Positions 1-13,070 of a stretch of 26,366 bases of DNA are shown here, one piece after another; the first letter of the stretch is position 1, and each line of letters opens with the position of its first letter. Both the position numbers and the translations under genes were made by a program. The stretch spans positions 1-26,366 of IMG/VR virus record IMGVR_UViG_3300020159_004593; one strand, given 5' to 3'. Under the pieces are notes generated by a model, which had not been told where the DNA came from, searched no databases, and was given only the letters and a program-made list of their open reading frames with translations. Source of the DNA: a virus.

Positions 1-2400
1 AGTGGGGTTAGTGCCGATAAATTCGCTGGTGCTATAAGAACAATATCACAAGGAATAGTTGATTCTGCAAAAATATTTTCAAAGTCTAAATCTGCATTTT
101 CAAACTATCCAAGCTTGAAATGGTCTGAAGGTGTTAGTAAATCACTTCAGGCTTTCGCTCCTATTTTTGAGTATTTGAATAAAAATAAGAGTTTCTTAGG
201 TTCTCTATTTGGATCAGACCCTTCTAAGGATTTAAATAAAGCTATAGTTGGAATAGCTGATACAATCGTGAGTGTTTCATTTAAACTATCTAAAGGTAAA
301 TTTGGTAATTACATACCAGATGAATTCATAAAAGGATTAGACAGAACTTACAATTTTGTCTCAGGATTATCTTCTAAAATTAAAGATTTAAAGATTAAAA
401 AAATTGAAGATAATTTGATTAAAATAGCTGATTTGATTAGAATTGTGTCTTTAAAGTTATCAACAATTAATTTTAAGAATGTAATTACCGATTCATTTAT
501 AAAGGGTATAGACAAATCTATAGACTTAATAATAAATGGTATAAAGAAGACTAAGAATTTAAAATTAGAAGATACTTTTAAGTTATTTATAATATCTTCA
601 AGTATTTCAAATTTATCGAATAGCTTTAGTAAGGCTAACTTTAACAAGTACCCTACCACTAAGTGGTTAAATTCAACCTATAATTCAATAGTAAAATTCA
701 ATCAACTAATATCAACATTAAGTAAGAATGTGTCATCTGGTGTTTTAACTTTAAAAAATATAACAGATACTATTTTATGGGTTGATAAGAAGTTAGCAAC
801 TGGTAAATATTCAAAATGGCCAATTGATGTTTGGTTGAAAAAATCAATAAACTCAATAAAGACTTATGGTGATATGATCATCAAGAGTGATAAATCCTAT
901 CCATTTAGAAACTTAGCATCCGGTATTTTAAAAGATAAAATGATAGTTGAGTTTTTATTATGGGTTGATAAAAAACTAGAAACTGGTAAATATAAAAAGT
1001 GGCCTGATAAACCGTGGATACCTAAGAGCATTGATTCCATATTAAAATATGGAAGATTAGCAATTCAATCGGATAAGGAATTTTCTTGGAAAAATTTAAT
1101 ATCAGGATTTTTAAAAGTTAGATTAATTACAAACACCATTTTGTGGGTTGATAAAACTTTGGATAAGGGTAGATATAAAAAATGGCCAGAAAAATTATGG
1201 ATCGACAAAACATCGACCTCTATACTTAGATTTGGACAGTTGGCAATAGATGTTGATAAAAAATTCGGAATGGTTAAGTTATTTTTAGGACTGATGAAGG
1301 CTAAAAGTATATCAAATGCTATAAAGGATATATCACTTAATTTAGATAAAGGTAAGTATACAAAGTTTCCAAGTTTAGAATGGGCAAAGGGTGTACCAAT
1401 AGCTATAGCATCATTTATGACTCTTCCGTTTAAGGGAGTTTTAGGTCAAGTAGCGGACTTTATTCTTGGTCCAAGTGAAGATTCGAAGAAGTCACAATTA
1501 GCTAAAGTTGTTGACATGATGTTATTTGTTGATAAGAAATTACAATCAGGTAATTGGAAAAAGTTTCCAACTGTTAATTGGGTTAATGGAACAATATTGG
1601 CAATTCAAAAATTTAGACAAATGGTCTCATTATTGAGTTTTAGTTCACTTGGTGATAAGATTACACAAGCTTTTGGATTTAAAAATCCAATCGTTTCGGC
1701 ACTTTCAAATATAGAAATGTTGGCGGTATCATTTGATAAACTTGCTAAATCTGTCAAGACCTTCACCGAATCAATAAAATCAATTGATGCTGAGAAACTA
1801 TCGGCCATTAGAGGATTATCAAGTAATGTAATAATGATGTCTCTAATGGATCCTGCTCAGTTTGATAGTATGATGACTAAATTGGAAGAAAGATCCGGTG
1901 TTTTTGCTGACTTATTAAAGGATTTTGATTCTAAAAAATCAGAGACTTCTAAATCTGGTGGTGGCGGTGGTGTTAATTTTAAACCAGCATCAGAGGCAAA
2001 AAATCAAAAAACAGATTCACAAATTCTGGGTGAAAAGATGGATTTAATGAATGCATTGCTTTCTGATATTTCATCTGTTGTTGGATCTAGAGGAGCTCTA
2101 AAGAACTATCTAAATAAGATGAAAGATGATATAACAATTGGTGGATCGTCTAATTCTTTAAATCAGAGATCTGACTCAAGATTAAAGAATATAGTAAAGA
2201 AATTATATGTTTCGGATTCTGGAATAAATGTTTATTTGTTTAGTTATAAATTCGATCCTTCAACTTTATACCAAGGTGTTATAGCACAAGAGTTATTAAA
2301 TACCCCTTACGAGTCGGCTCTACATATGGATAAAAACGGATTATATTCAGTAGATTACTCACAAATAGATGTTGATTTTAAGAAAACAAATTTTGTTTGA
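1..2400 (+). CDS. Repeat-containing virion protein with C-terminal S74-like chaperone segment (5' end outside window)
   Basis: The frame is open from base 1, so the true start lies upstream; the ATG at 115 is internal to a repeat and is not the start. The protein carries about nine degenerate repeats of 55-68 residues. Each has a core like GKY-x-KWP followed by W/F-x(4)-SI and a spacer such as LWVDKKL. A Gly5 stretch lies near base 1960. The last 76 residues contain R-SDSRLK, YQGVIAQEL and NGLYSVDYSQID, which match the conserved core of the intramolecular chaperone (peptidase S74) found at the ends of phage tail fibres and other trimeric virion proteins. In that family the Ser before Asp is the self-cleavage site, and here it is present (codon at 2170). 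The helical tail that usually follows VDYS is missing. A tail fibre or a tape-measure-like protein are both possible. Virion location is likely; the exact role is unknown. Confidence 0.7.
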   Translation, partial: SGVSADKFAGAIRTISQGIVDSAKIFSKSKSAFSNYPSLKWSEGVSKSLQAFAPIFEYLNKNKSFLGSLFGSDPSKDLNKAIVGIADTIVSVSFKLSKGKFGNYIPDEFIKGLDRTYNFVSGLSSKIKDLKIKKIEDNLIKIADLIRIVSLKLSTINFKNVITDSFIKGIDKSIDLIINGIKKTKNLKLEDTFKLFIISSSISNLSNSFSKANFNKYPTTKWLNSTYNSIVKFNQLISTLSKNVSSGVLTLKNITDTILWVDKKLATGKYSKWPIDVWLKKSINSIKTYGDMIIKSDKSYPFRNLASGILKDKMIVEFLLWVDKKLETGKYKKWPDKPWIPKSIDSILKYGRLAIQSDKEFSWKNLISGFLKVRLITNTILWVDKTLDKGRYKKWPEKLWIDKTSTSILRFGQLAIDVDKKFGMVKLFLGLMKAKSISNAIKDISLNLDKGKYTKFPSLEWAKGVPIAIASFMTLPFKGVLGQVADFILGPSEDSKKSQLAKVVDMMLFVDKKLQSGNWKKFPTVNWVNGTILAIQKFRQMVSLLSFSSLGDKITQAFGFKNPIVSALSNIEMLAVSFDKLAKSVKTFTESIKSIDAEKLSAIRGLSSNVIMMSLMDPAQFDSMMTKLEERSGVFADLLKDFDSKKSETSKSGGGGGVNFKPASEAKNQKTDSQILGEKMDLMNALLSDISSVVGSRGALKNYLNKMKDDITIGGSSNSLNQRSDSRLKNIVKKLYVSDSGINVYLFSYKFDPSTLYQGVIAQELLNTPYESALHMDKNGLYSVDYSQIDVDFKKTNFV
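85..1640 (+). repeat. About nine degenerate protein repeats of 165-205 bp
   Basis: Repeat cores start near 85, 295, 470, 630, 800, 980, 1163, 1345 and 1543. The best conserved copies (800-1640) share the amino-acid pattern LWVDKKL-x-TGKY-x-KWP-x(3)-W-x(3)-SI. Spacing is close to 183 bp for the middle copies and looser outside. The DNA itself has diverged, so this is an old protein repeat and not a recent tandem duplication. Confidence 0.75.
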
Positions 2401-2894: not shown

Positions 2895-3320
2895 ATGAGT
2901 AAATTTTACGATGTATCTTCAGATACTCAGGATACATTTTTTAAAGTTTTTAATAAAAAAACTTTTCCATTATCGATTAAGTTCCAATTTGTTGGTGCTG
3001 AAAAACAAAAATCACTAATAAAAATTAGTAAGTTACCAGATCAGTATAGTTTCCTTCTAGATAAGGAGTTATTAATACAGGTAAATGAGGATTTAATGTC
3101 AGTATTTGATGAGGAATCAGTTACTATTCTTATAGAACAGGAAATCGATAAAATATCAGTTGATACACAATCTGGTAAGATTAAATTGATTAAACCTGAC
3201 TTAACTACATTTTCTTCACTAATTTCAAAATATGGTGTGGATAAAGTAGCAAAGGCTAATCAGATAGAAGAATTATACCAACAACAAGTAAAAGACGGTA
3301 AAGAAGAATTTATAGCATAA
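2895..3320 (+). CDS. Conserved phage protein of unknown function (141 aa)
   Basis: A compact alpha/beta protein with no membrane segment or signal peptide. The middle reads PDQYSFLLDKELLIQVNEDL, followed by EESVTILIEQEIDKIS and IKPDLTTFSSLISKYG. This layout recalls phage proteins annotated as putative metallopeptidases, in which a helix at the EEQEI position carries the zinc motif. No HExxH is present here, so an enzyme role is not supported; that comparison is from memory and weak. It begins a run of three closely spaced genes (gaps of 4 and 12 bases) that ends at the hairpin at 4210, behind a TATAAATA box. Late virion or assembly protein is an inference from position. Confidence 0.6.
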   Translation: MSKFYDVSSDTQDTFFKVFNKKTFPLSIKFQFVGAEKQKSLIKISKLPDQYSFLLDKELLIQVNEDLMSVFDEESVTILIEQEIDKISVDTQSGKIKLIKPDLTTFSSLISKYGVDKVAKANQIEELYQQQVKDGKEEFIA

Positions 3321-6054: not shown

Positions 6055-6480
6055 TTATTTTGTTTTTTCTTTTAAAGAATTGATTAGATTCTCACCAACT
6101 CTTTTAATTGGATTTTTTTCAAGTTTTTCAATCTCTCTCTTTATTCTTTCATTTTCTTTTTTATAACCACTTATATTGGATTTTAGTCTGTTAATTTCTT
6201 TGTTTTTGCTATTTATAAGTGTTTGAATTGAATCTATTCTGTTCTGGTATATTATTATATTTTTTAAATGCTTATCGACATCTTTCTTGAGTTTTTCATT
6301 ATCCTTCTCAAGTGAGTCTCTTTTATTTTGTATGGATTTAATATCATTCTCTATTCTGGATATTTCTTTTTTGTATCCTGATGATGTGAAGAAGTAGTTT
6401 AGTGATAGCGCTAATACTGAAATAACTAGTATTACTATAACCCAGTCTTTAAGTTTGAGGTTAGAAAAAAATGAATTCAT
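6055..6480 (-). CDS. Inner-membrane coiled-coil protein, i-spanin-like
   Basis: A 141-residue protein. The start is set at the ATG at 6480 (MNSFFSNLKLKDW); an upstream in-frame start at 6585 would run back through the divergent promoter and the neighbouring gene and is rejected. Residues 13-31 (VIVILVISVLALSLNYFF) form one transmembrane helix. Residues 35-130 are a Lys/Glu-rich coiled coil with regular heptads. N-terminal anchor plus periplasmic coiled coil is the layout of i-spanins (lambda Rz type). The downstream gene, 3 bases away, codes for a second coiled-coil protein with an export signal, which strengthens a lysis-pair reading. No sequence motif is diagnostic, so this rests on architecture and gene pairing. 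Confidence 0.5.
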   Translation of the reverse strand: MNSFFSNLKLKDWVIVILVISVLALSLNYFFTSSGYKKEISRIENDIKSIQNKRDSLEKDNEKLKKDVDKHLKNIIIYQNRIDSIQTLINSKNKEINRLKSNISGYKKENERIKREIEKLEKNPIKRVGENLINSLKEKTK

Positions 6481-6510
6481 TTGTGTATATAAAAATTTTT
6501 TGTATATTTG
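6480..6510 (+). promoter_or_regulatory. Bacteroidota-type housekeeping promoter
   Basis: TTTG at 6480-6483, a 19-base spacer and TATATTTG at 6503-6510 exactly match the Bacteroidota primary sigma consensus (TTTG, 17-23 nt, TAnnTTTG). It lies 38 bases before the GTG start of the HAD gene, in a 68-base divergent gap, and reads toward HAD-clpS. A host-type promoter suggests early or constitutive expression. Confidence 0.6.
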
Positions 6511-6548
6511 TGATTCAATATATATATTCAATAAAAAAACCAATTTTT

Positions 6549-7058
6549 GTGAAAAAATTAATATCTTTCGACTTTGATAAAACACTTTGCTTCACACCTG
6601 AGCCAGAAGAGGGTCAAGTTATTTTTAAAAATGTTACTGGTTTAGACTGGCCGTATAGAGGTTGGTGGGGCCGTGGAGAAACGTTAAATTTGGAAATTTT
6701 TCCAATTCCAATTAATCAATATGTATACAAGGACTATCTGAAATACTCAGATGATCCAGATTCTTATATTATTTTAGCAACAGGTCGACTCTCAAAATTG
6801 AGAAAAGAAGTTGAAGACGTTTTGATGTCTCATAATTTTTCATTTGACGAAGTACATTTGAATCCGGGTATGGATACCTATTTGTTTAAAACACAACTTT
6901 TTGAAAAATTAATTTCAAAGCATAAACCAGATGTTTTCATTATGTATGATGATAGATCTGAACATCTTTCTAAATTTGTACACTGGGCTAAAACACAAGC
7001 TTGTGAAATTCATATAATCGATGTTATAAACAAAACAACTAAAATTGTAAATAAATAA
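6549..7058 (+). CDS. HAD-superfamily phosphatase, resembling HAD 'SAK' RNA-repair-like proteins
   Basis: A 169-residue HAD hydrolase. The start is set at the GTG at 6549 (then KKLISFDFDKTL). The upstream ATG at 6471 would add 26 residues translated from the promoter and overlap the opposite gene. All four HAD motifs are present: DFDKTL (Asp8, Asp10), LATGR (Thr78), the Lys in TYLFK (Lys114) and YDDR (Asp134, Asp135). The stretch GWWGRGETL and the order LATGR, TYLFK, YDDRSEHL recall the 'Swiss army knife' HAD proteins linked to RNA repair in eukaryotes and viruses. That family link is from memory and the substrate is not shown. It is first in a two-gene unit with clpS (1-base gap), behind a host-type promoter. 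Confidence 0.8.
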   Translation: MKKLISFDFDKTLCFTPEPEEGQVIFKNVTGLDWPYRGWWGRGETLNLEIFPIPINQYVYKDYLKYSDDPDSYIILATGRLSKLRKEVEDVLMSHNFSFDEVHLNPGMDTYLFKTQLFEKLISKHKPDVFIMYDDRSEHLSKFVHWAKTQACEIHIIDVINKTTKIVNK

Positions 7059-7059
7059 T

Positions 7060-7341
7060 ATGGCAACTATTACAGAAAAAAAGTCTCAATCTAAAGCAGA
7101 CGAAATACTATCTAAACCATTTAAACTAATACTTCATAATGATGATTATAACACATTTGAGTGGGTTATAACCTGTTTAATGAAAGTGTGTGGACATGAA
7201 TATGAACAAGCAAGTCAATGTGCTCATATTGTACACTTCAAAGGTGAGTGTGATGTTAAATATGGTGAATATGAAAAGATTTCTAAAATGAAGGATAAAT
7301 TACAAAATGCTGGTCTATCTGTAACGATAGAGGAGAATTAA
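7060..7341 (+). CDS. clpS: ATP-dependent Clp protease adaptor ClpS
   Basis: A 93-residue ClpS. The core starts FKLILHNDDYNTFEWVITCL, with Asn27-Asp28-Asp29 and Thr32 matching the N-degron pocket residues of ClpS (NDD motif). His59 in IVHFKGE sits at the position of E. coli ClpS His66. The N-terminal tail that engages ClpA/ClpC is about 20 residues long and Lys/Ser-rich. ClpS delivers proteins with destabilising N-terminal residues to the Clp unfoldase. A phage copy could redirect host proteolysis or tune N-end-rule turnover of phage proteins after prohead protease cleavage; these are inferences. It is cotranscribed with the HAD gene, and its stop overlaps that of the convergent gene at TTAA (7338-7341). 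Confidence 0.92.
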   Translation: MATITEKKSQSKADEILSKPFKLILHNDDYNTFEWVITCLMKVCGHEYEQASQCAHIVHFKGECDVKYGEYEKISKMKDKLQNAGLSVTIEEN

Positions 7342-8141
7342 AATTTATTTACATTACCAGATCTTATTCTTTCTTTGATTTGAAGTAAATCATCATTGGT
7401 CAATTCTTCCATTGTTCGATTTACTTCAAATCTTTTTTCATGCTCAGATTCCTCTTCATTCACATTATTAATCATTTTTCTAATGTCTTTTATAGATAAA
7501 TTAGTGGATTTAATACTTTCCGGCATAGTTGTAAAATTATCTGACTCTTTTGTGAGTTTATCCCATTCCTCTTTATAGTTAGGAATTTCATCTACAAATT
7601 CTTCTTTTTCTCCATCAGAGAAATCATTTATTATTGAAACTATTCTCCAGTCAAGTTTATCTTTATTTTTTCTTACAAAATCTATAGGAAGTTCGTTAGC
7701 GCTTATAAGTCTCCATAGGTTATATTTCTCTATAATCCATTCATATTTTGAAATGTCTTCTATTTTTTCTGATGAGCATAGGTAAAGTACCATTCTTTCC
7801 CAATTGATCCATTTTTCATAAATTCTAATGAATTTATCCGATAGATTAGAGTATGTTTTCATATTCAAATCACTTATATCTTCTAAATCAAACCAATCTA
7901 TCTCAATTGCTTCTTTTATGAAATTTTCAGATAGGTTTGAAATAGATATAATTATACTTTTTGAAAATCCATCAAATTCTGGACTAGGAGGTCCCCATTT
8001 TAAAATGAATGATTCCGGCACATCATATGATTGTAAGACACTAATTAGTCCTTCCTCTTCTATTCGCTTCAAAAGAGATTCCTCAGTTATTTTTAAAACT
8101 TCTTCTGTTTTGATTTCATCTACTATTTCAATTTTTCTCAT
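7338..8141 (-). CDS. Degenerate LSE-F-I/W repeat protein of unknown function
   Basis: A 267-residue acidic protein, starting 2 bases after the terminase stop and surely on the same message. It contains diverged copies of a unit like LSENFI-x(6)-IDW, LSDKFI-x(7)-INW and LPIDFV-x(7)-LDWRIVS. This repeat is common in large phages and giant viruses, where it forms helical hairpin stacks of unknown role. The copies cover about residues 38-180. The C-terminal third is charged and probably disordered. Coupling to the terminase could mean a packaging accessory, but the repeat is seen in many contexts, so this is weak. Its stop codon shares the TTAA with clpS. Confidence 0.65.
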   Translation of the reverse strand: MRKIEIVDEIKTEEVLKITEESLLKRIEEEGLISVLQSYDVPESFILKWGPPSPEFDGFSKSIIISISNLSENFIKEAIEIDWFDLEDISDLNMKTYSNLSDKFIRIYEKWINWERMVLYLCSSEKIEDISKYEWIIEKYNLWRLISANELPIDFVRKNKDKLDWRIVSIINDFSDGEKEEFVDEIPNYKEEWDKLTKESDNFTTMPESIKSTNLSIKDIRKMINNVNEEESEHEKRFEVNRTMEELTNDDLLQIKERIRSGNVNKF

Positions 8142-8143
8142 AT

Positions 8144-10258
8144 TTAATTATTATTTTTAAATGGATTGTTCCAATTATTTGACAAAACATCGTTTTTATA
8201 TCTATTTTGAGATATCTTTCTCCTTCTTATATCAAGTAATTGTGAGTAATCAACACCCTCGGTATATTCTGAGTTATTCAGTATTTGATCTATGTAGTTT
8301 TTTATAGATGTGTCTGATAATGTGTCTATAAAATCATCAACCAACTGTTTAAAATCATTTTTCTGAAAAATAGCACACATATCAATTAATGTCATTACTG
8401 TATCATCATGTGATGATCCATCCGCTGCATATCTTGTATTCCCTGCATTTGTTGTGTGTTTTATAAATGTTGTAATTTCCGATATGTTTATATCATTTGA
8501 TATAACTATTGATCTTTCTTCCATTCTATCTTGATATTCTTTTACAAGCAGATTCTTATTATCACCGACTTTTAATCCTATTTTTTCTTCAAGTGCATCA
8601 GATCTATGTTTAAATCTAAAAAATATTGAAGATCCATAGTCATTACTACCATCAAATACGTGCGGTAGGTGAGCTAATAGTTCATTTCCATAAGTGTTTA
8701 TCTCTAATACTATTTTAACATTATCTGGATTAAAAAATTCAAATGCTGTTAAGTATAATAGTTCTGAAAGCTGTTGAACCGAAATTAAGTTACTTCTAAA
8801 AATTCCTATTTGTCTTAATTGTACAAAGTCAACAATTGACTTATATTTACTTTTTTGTTTTTCAATTAATTCAATCGGTTTCATATCCATTTTGAATATG
8901 TTTACAACTGTATAATCCTGACCTAATCCTTCAGCCACATCGACTGATATAATTATTTTATAGTTTTTTCTACTTAGTGGTAAAAACTCATCCTCATCTT
9001 GGTTCCATTTAAAATCTTGATAAGAGAATTTCAATTTTCCTTCAAACTCTTCTATTCTTTCCCATTCAAACAATTTCTTATTTTTGGATAACTCATCTAT
9101 TAATGTTTCACTTAACAAACTTCTAGATGAATTTATAAACCTTAAATCATATTCTTGATTAAATGCTTCTTCACCACCAATATCTTTAATAGTCTCTTTT
9201 TTCCAAGTTGTTATATCTGAAAATTCTAATAATCTTACACCATTAAACGATTCAGCGAGTAGATCCTCTTCTGTACAATCTGATGTATTTAGTGATGTTA
9301 TTACCCATTTTTTTAATTCATCATTATATTTTAGATTGTGTTCATTTTTTTTATATTTTTCTCTTAGATATTTAAGTAGTTCTTCATTATTGATGTTAAA
9401 CTCATCTACTTTTTTTGAATTTAATCTTATATAAGTTGCAAATCTTTTTGGAACCTGCCACCAATAAACTCTCTTAGCCATATATGATGACTTTTCTCCT
9501 TCTGGCTTTTCAGCCTCTGTTAATAATTTATGAAAAAGGTTAAATCCGTTAGGTGTTGATGTTATTATAATTTTAGAGTTCTCAATATTTGATACTGTTG
9601 GGAAAACAGATTTATAAAATTTATCAGCTATATTATCTGGTAGATATGCAAACTCATCTAGATATAAAAAGTCAGCAGTTTGACCAATAGATGATGTTTT
9701 AGTGGTTGCAAATCCTTTTATTCGACTTTTATTTTCAAATACCATAAATTTTTGATTCCAGTTTATAATTCCTTGTTGTAGAAAAAACGGAAGTCTTTGG
9801 TAGATTTCTCTTATTTTATCTAATACTTCAACCGCAGTATCTAATTTATTTGCCGTTACTAATACATTTTTATTATTATTGAATAGAACATAATGTAACA
9901 TCATTATAGATGAGCATATTGTTTTTCCTATCTGACGACTCGCCATCAATATATTAAATCTATTAGAAAAGAAATTATCCAATATCTCATTTTGATAATC
10001 TCTTAGTGGTATTATTATTGGTTGTCCTTCTTCACCTTTAATATAACAGTATGTCGCTGCGAAATGGTGTATATCCAATGCACATTTAATATACTCTTCT
10101 TGTTCATCAGGGCTCATTTTGAATGTTAGTCCTGATGTTCTAAGGCCAACAACTTTCTCAAAAAATGGATTGTCCAATCTACTCAATACAAATCCATTGT
10201 TAATTTTCTCAGTAGCTTCTTCGACCATCTTAGTGGTCCATATTACTTGTCTAGACAT
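8144..10258 (-). CDS. Terminase large subunit (T4 gp17-like packaging ATPase/nuclease)
   Basis: A 704-residue DNA packaging motor. ATPase domain: Walker A SRQIGKT (107-113), Walker B FLYLDE (197-202) and the coupling motif TSTPNG (233-238). RNase H-like nuclease domain: SVDVAEGLGQDY (Asp440), VLEIN (Glu519) and SSHDD (Asp618, Asp619), giving the metal-binding acidic residues. The family's VPxR (269-272) and W-x(3)-TI (352-357) landmarks are almost adjacent in T4 gp17 but about 75 residues apart here, so most of the extra length over gp17 (610 aa) is an insertion between ATPase and nuclease domains. It acts on the prohead portal, cutting and translocating concatemeric DNA. It is transcribed divergently from the likely small terminase. 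Confidence 0.95.
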   Translation of the reverse strand: MSRQVIWTTKMVEEATEKINNGFVLSRLDNPFFEKVVGLRTSGLTFKMSPDEQEEYIKCALDIHHFAATYCYIKGEEGQPIIIPLRDYQNEILDNFFSNRFNILMASRQIGKTICSSIMMLHYVLFNNNKNVLVTANKLDTAVEVLDKIREIYQRLPFFLQQGIINWNQKFMVFENKSRIKGFATTKTSSIGQTADFLYLDEFAYLPDNIADKFYKSVFPTVSNIENSKIIITSTPNGFNLFHKLLTEAEKPEGEKSSYMAKRVYWWQVPKRFATYIRLNSKKVDEFNINNEELLKYLREKYKKNEHNLKYNDELKKWVITSLNTSDCTEEDLLAESFNGVRLLEFSDITTWKKETIKDIGGEEAFNQEYDLRFINSSRSLLSETLIDELSKNKKLFEWERIEEFEGKLKFSYQDFKWNQDEDEFLPLSRKNYKIIISVDVAEGLGQDYTVVNIFKMDMKPIELIEKQKSKYKSIVDFVQLRQIGIFRSNLISVQQLSELLYLTAFEFFNPDNVKIVLEINTYGNELLAHLPHVFDGSNDYGSSIFFRFKHRSDALEEKIGLKVGDNKNLLVKEYQDRMEERSIVISNDINISEITTFIKHTTNAGNTRYAADGSSHDDTVMTLIDMCAIFQKNDFKQLVDDFIDTLSDTSIKNYIDQILNNSEYTEGVDYSQLLDIRRRKISQNRYKNDVLSNNWNNPFKNNN

Positions 10259-12719: not shown

Positions 12720-13070
12720 TTAACTTAAACTATCTAAGAAGGTTTTTTCAATTTCGGTAAGTGAATCTATTCCAGATCCAGATATCTTCTCTAAGATTGT
12801 ATCTAAGTCTAATGACTTTTGTTTCTTAGGTAGTTCAACTGGTACAATTTCAGATAATTCTTTTGTAAAATCATCTGTAAATCTAACTGTATCATCTTTC
12901 TTCACCGTAAAAGCAAAAATCTTCATGGTGTTTTTATTGATCCAGATTTTAGCAAAACTTTGATTTTTTGTTGATAGGATAGTTTGGAAGTCAAGTCCAT
13001 GAATTTCACAAACCTCTTTCAACTTAATATGATTGAACATTCTTAAATCTATACAAATGACGTTTTCCAT
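12720..13070 (-). CDS. Small protein with a Bacteroidota-type C-terminal helical motif
   Basis: A 116-residue protein. The N-terminal 75 residues (MENVICIDLRMFNHIKLKEV, then FAKIWINKNTMKIFAF) look like a small alpha/beta domain that I do not recognise. The C-terminus (LDTILEKISGSGIDSLTEIE, then KTFLDSLS) matches a short helical motif (LD-x-ILDKI-x-x-SG-x-x-SLT-x-EEK-x-FL) that closes many Bacteroidota proteins, including rhomboid-like membrane proteins. In a phage this suggests capture from, or interaction with, a Bacteroidota host. It is a single-gene unit with its own terminator and a candidate host-type promoter (13086-13117). Confidence 0.6.
   Translation of the reverse strand: MENVICIDLRMFNHIKLKEVCEIHGLDFQTILSTKNQSFAKIWINKNTMKIFAFTVKKDDTVRFTDDFTKELSEIVPVELPKKQKSLDLDTILEKISGSGIDSLTEIEKTFLDSLS

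Follow-up and report, generated by a model that had tools for sequence, protein, structure and literature searches.

A conserved HAD–ClpS gene cassette with a putative host-type promoter among the virion genes of probable huge Bacteroidota phages

Introduction

A gene for the protease adaptor ClpS in the middle of a phage virion-gene cluster raises the question of when such an adaptor would be made and whose proteins it would act on. In the window studied here (the whole stretch of DNA analysed, 26,366 nt), a HAD phosphatase gene and a ClpS gene follow one another amid virion genes. The first-pass annotation, made from the letters alone, read them as a two-gene unit with a host-type promoter, suggesting early proteins that act on the host or counter its defences. 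We asked which parts of this reading hold across relatives of the window.

Results

The window's clade appears to be related to the Mahaphage-size genomes of 635–642 kb, and its source would be a very large bacterial virus, in our best explanation a Bacteroidota phage. Window genes match two genomes, LR745206 and LR756502 (635 and 642 kb), in identical gene order, and Al-Shayeb et al. 2020 assigned those of their genomes that exceed 634 kb to their Mahaphage clade (PMC7162821). The window's own genome is known here from 26 kb, and genes of the larger genome are read in relatives only. ClpS searches gave 32 viral loci at first and, from a later list of 354, the best 80; three uncultured phage genomes of 635–642 kb were added to these; because the loci were picked mostly via ClpS, its presence in them is by construction.

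The location amid virion genes noted at first was confirmed, with a terminase large subunit, a tail sheath and a tail tube found around HAD–ClpS. The terminase gene (TerL; 8144–10258, minus strand; phrog_5989, 5.9e-40) is convergent with ClpS, and a divergent coiled-coil gene (6055–6480, minus strand), coding for 141 aa with a hydrophobic N-terminal stretch and weak Rz-spanin-like matches, shares its intergenic region with HAD. A putative phage metallopeptidase is encoded at 2895–3320 (plus strand; PF18894, 1.1e-8), and searches for Rfam families and tRNAs found none in the window.

HAD (6549–7058, plus strand) lies directly upstream of ClpS (7060–7341, plus strand) with the promoter ahead of it, in agreement with the proposed two-gene unit. 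The first-pass annotation had also made its proposal depend on conservation of the pair, and among 110 ClpS-selected loci 93 have HAD at most 110 nt upstream, five have it at a greater distance, and 12 showed no HAD. Of the 102 loci that include TerL, 101 have it convergent with ClpS on the downstream side. A TerL-based search gave 12 loci, with both genes in ten; one of the others ends within TerL, and the last, L256, is a close relative (TerL 81%) in which other genes replace HAD–ClpS within the 2 kb left on the contig. Several lineages keep ClpS without HAD, and the 636-kb relative LR756504 has its HAD relative well away from ClpS. The cassette is thus conserved yet not obligatory, and the link between its genes is positional; given these exceptions, a joint function of the two proteins, which the first annotation had hinted at, is not supported. 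In L256, another small gene (8056–8355, minus strand) occupies the place where HAD–ClpS would be.

Ahead of HAD, a -33-like TTTG (6480–6483, plus strand) is followed after 19 nt by a -7 element, TATATTTG (6503–6510, plus strand), which satisfies the TAHHTTTG consensus of Bacteroidota sigma-A promoters (PMC6847099). No other match in the window has a 19-nt spacer; spacers of 17–23 nt give four matches vs 2.6 expected, a count that is not significant. It is the relatives that bear out the host-type promoter: of 45 non-redundant loci, 37 have TAnnTTTG within 90 nt upstream of HAD, whereas shuffles predict 5.8 and the opposite strand gives three. A chance match can be ruled out by this conservation and strand control, despite the non-significant count in the window. 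Both elements are present upstream of HAD in just 7/45 loci (0.3 expected; 45–47 relatives), so that it is chiefly the -7 half that is kept, the -33-like TTTG being mostly not conserved; predominance of the -7 half fits Flavobacterium johnsoniae (PMC7366714). At four loci without HAD (L023, L025, L026 and L028), TAnCTTTG stands 44–45 nt upstream of ClpS, and on the coiled-coil gene's own strand the intergenic region is without a -7 element (1/17). Sites of the E. coli sigma-70 type were uninformative, as 67 were found between 3000 and 13200 vs 67 expected. Transcription from this putative promoter would be carried out by host RNA polymerase.

The 90 nt upstream of virion genes are nearly devoid of TAnnTTTG (TerL 0/30, 4917m 1/49, 5551m 0/34, 4235m 1/43). 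A virion-type motif with the consensus TTAATATATAA, derived from the 4917m, 12298m and 4235m sites, exceeds its threshold of 8 on the coding strand at 96% of 4917m loci, 86% of 12298m, 58% of 13155, 5% of 4235m and 0% of TerL loci, and the shorter ATATATA is enriched upstream of most of the virion-type-motif genes tested. Judged by the genes downstream of it, this motif would be a late one. The window itself has a virion-type-like ATATATAT after the -7 element and before HAD, but its score of 6.1 on that strand falls short of the threshold of 8. The gene 12720m (12720–13070, minus strand), which encodes a DUF6576 protein, is a second gene with a host-type promoter in relatives: TAnnTTTG precedes it at 13 of 18 loci vs 1.1 expected, ten having both elements, and the window copy carries TATATTTA in place of the host-type element. 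With this promoter split, sequence offers a means of telling probable early genes from late ones in huge Bacteroidota phages that have been seen only in metagenomes.

An RNA polymerase beta subunit was not detected in eight larger relatives, where divergent phage polymerases could be missed, and sigma-70 region 2 matches were found in seven of the eight, six of them above the cut-off; both results would fit a reliance on the host enzyme. In three relatives the sigma-70 region 2 gene adjoins a short ClpP-like gene (LR756502 363741–365000; G009 179010–180122; G008 81468–82581), which possibly encodes a prohead protease.

The window protein is a true ClpS. It matches PF02617 at 2.5e-19 and 69.3 bits (Pfam cut-off 23), and its predicted structure (pLDDT 77) has ClpS crystal structures as top matches, with E of about 1e-7 and TM of at most 0.78 by query length. 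Its N-degron pocket residues N27, D28, D29 and H59 correspond to N34, D35, D36 and H66 of E. coli; in the phage clade the equivalents of N34, D35 and H66 are kept in 44/44 sequences and that of D36 in 43/44, and the pocket is common to these 44 phage and 80 bacterial sequences, the latter nearly all from Bacteroidota. The two groups also share Phe at the position of E. coli M40, found in all sequences compared including 80/80 bacterial ones, and up to 60% identity; they differ at H56 and K80, which are invariable within the phage clade and uncommon in the bacterial set. Compared with L002, dN/dS is about 0.05 for ClpS, indicating strong purifying selection, and about 0.05 for HAD.

In a tree of 128 rows the 44 phage sequences form one supported clade (99/96) beside or among Bacteroidota, with few columns and bootstrap unsettled, and three other phage rows fall elsewhere. 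ClpS was probably acquired long ago, once, from a Bacteroidota bacterium. Around the 80 bacterial clpS genes, a clpA/C-like gene is absent within 3 kb. Bacterial ClpS sequences were found by an alignment search, whereas searching the bacterial genomes with one ClpS sequence gave no match. Phage-wide ClpS searches, in a collection that includes Lak-A1, list none of the Lak records, which is weak evidence of absence.

The HAD protein belongs to the Swiss-Army-Knife type (HAD_SAK_1, PF10307; 5.6e-8, 33.2 bits, Pfam cut-off 25.6). We place its start at the GTG at 6549, 38 nt downstream of the -7 element, because the alternative ATG at 6471 is upstream of the promoter; that candidate was ruled out, and relatives also align from 6549. 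The catalytic motifs of HAD enzymes are present, and D8, D10, T78, R80, K114, D134, D135 and R136 are invariant in 32 sequences. Resemblance to RNA-repair enzymes, suspected from the start, is upheld by the predicted fold (pLDDT 96.6), whose best solved matches are the 3'-phosphatases of Pnkp1 (Z 15.2) and T4 PNKP (Z 14.8), about 2–3 Z above most other HAD matches. By sequence, the protein is weakly similar to RNA-repair phosphatases of solved structure (E 0.13 to Pnkp1), a PDB sequence search gave no convincing match (best E 0.039), and PADLOC matched HAD weakly (E 0.027) and ClpS not at all. In fold and in its DxD, TGR, Lys and DDR positions, the protein resembles HAD_SAK_1 proteins and the phosphatases of the PNKP type, among them Pnkp1 from the RNA-repair complex Pnkp1/Rnl/Hen1, and it differs from these in being stand-alone, without a kinase domain, in its conserved GWW segment and in its weak sequence similarity. 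On the modelled fold, it is a probable RNA 3'-end phosphatase.

Larger relatives encode possible partners. ClpP was found in 8/10 records of a first set and 4/8 of a second, and RNA ligases occur in large relatives, one family with up to five matches per genome. The ClpC-like unfoldases of LR745206 and LR756502 are double-AAA proteins of about 700 aa that carry a UVR motif and lack Clp_N, and G008 and G009 have open frames (714 and 711 aa) that fit such an N-domain-less ClpC. The L030 lineage has a full ClpC, Clp_N included, downstream of ClpS, with one small gene between. Among the nearest larger fragments (G002–G004), ClpP is present in two of three, and searches for RNA ligase and ClpC matches found none. 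A ClpC-like gene in a 464-kb relative (L075, G001:120000–125500; 910–2103, minus strand) is apparently interrupted by an intein-like segment with a weak Intein_splicing match.

Discussion

Our preferred reading, to which we give a probability of roughly 0.5, is that HAD–ClpS is an early cassette, transcribed by host RNA polymerase, whose two genes provide one countermeasure each: proteolysis directed at N-degrons in one case, RNA end-healing in the other. What we observe are the genes, folds, pocket and catalytic-type residues, the conservation of promoter and cassette, and ClpP, ClpC and RNA ligases in larger relatives; from these we infer the timing, substrates, partners and purpose of HAD–ClpS, the direction and number of its acquisitions, and with them early expression, host targets and counter-defence. 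The compact unit would be transcribed rightward from the host sigma-A-type promoter amid the virion-gene cluster, a promoter type that makes early expression probable. ClpS would then capture proteins with bulky hydrophobic N-termini and steer them to Clp proteases, to host ClpA/C–ClpP through the canonical N-domain and possibly also to the phage's own ClpP with the N-domain-less ClpC. Such delivery of N-degron substrates would shift proteolysis toward such substrates and away from ssrA-tagged ones. The HAD protein may act separately as an RNA end-healing 3'-phosphatase that, together with phage RNA ligases, would undo RNA cleavage by host defences. One of the largest phage groups would then keep targeted proteolysis and RNA repair side by side as conserved functions.

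With a phage unfoldase that lacks the N-domain, the usual dock of ClpS, the phage ClpS may use another docking site or work with host ClpA/C only. In mycobacteria, ClpS acts on the middle domain of ClpC1 to inhibit it, and the N-domain is not needed (PMC6274998), which is by analogy a possible precedent for N-domain-less docking. It is tempting to go further and speculate, tentatively, that the phage distributes a Clp system over its genome, in which an early ClpS behind its host-type promoter, a ClpP and the N-domain-less unfoldase rewire proteolysis, with ClpS docking elsewhere on phage ClpC (for example at its middle domain) or hijacking host ClpA/C only. How adaptors dock becomes a question that can be put to a direct test where an N-domain-less ClpC occurs together with ClpS and ClpP.

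ClpS might instead work mainly late, alongside the terminase and the capsid-maturation protease, where it would clear N-degron fragments of capsid maturation or aid quality control of virion proteins, the host-type promoter giving basal expression only. ClpS adjoins terL in nearly all loci, short ClpP-like proteins occur in several relatives, and about 21% of 52 loci have a forward virion-type motif of their own just upstream of ClpS, so that ClpS may be made late there too. However, the conserved promoter of the unit is of the host type, unlike those of the virion genes, and in HAD-less lineages the host-type element precedes ClpS itself, and we consider a mainly late role unlikely. Rather less likely still is a phage ClpS that is mainly an inhibitor or decoy, blocking host Clp degradation of ssrA-tagged or other phage proteins and not delivering N-degrons. 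The known effect of ClpS on ClpA (PMC9663308) and the mycobacterial action on ClpC1 even without its N-domain would fit it, but the N-degron pocket is conserved, and a pure inhibitor would not need one.

Compatible with any reading of ClpS is the idea that HAD is a nucleotidase or another small-molecule phosphatase and has no part in RNA repair. Many other HAD phosphatases match its fold at Z 10–13, the PDB sequence search gave nothing convincing, and RNA ligases were not found in G002–G004, all of which would fit this idea. Against it stand the lead of Pnkp1 and T4 PNKP among the structural matches, the top viral-model match, which is a Swiss-Army-Knife RNA-repair HAD protein, and the ligases of the larger relatives; we regard it as a doubtful though serious alternative to an RNA end-healing HAD.

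Both kinds of protein have been described in jumbo phages before. ClpS and Swiss-Army-Knife HAD proteins were reported by Iyer et al. 2021, and a jumbo-phage ClpS (AMM43882.1) was proposed to bring targets to host ClpAP (PMC7824862). The jumbo phage Atu_ph07 has ClpA, ClpX, a ClpP-type subunit and ClpS together (PMC6102473), and ClpS is also found in PA5oct, Paride and others; a literature search on the timing of phage ClpS in PA5oct gave nothing usable. Unlike in these phages, ClpS is here of the Bacteroidota type, stands in a fixed HAD–ClpS–terL order behind a host-type promoter, and is accompanied in large relatives by a ClpC-like unfoldase without N-domain. New are the conservation of HAD–ClpS as a cassette, the split between promoter types and a ClpC that has no N-domain.

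A further observation concerns the neighbouring terL, which in L005, L007, L017, L165 and L199 is interrupted each time at residue 113, close to the ATP-binding motif; the insert measures at least several hundred bases and is likely an intron or intein.
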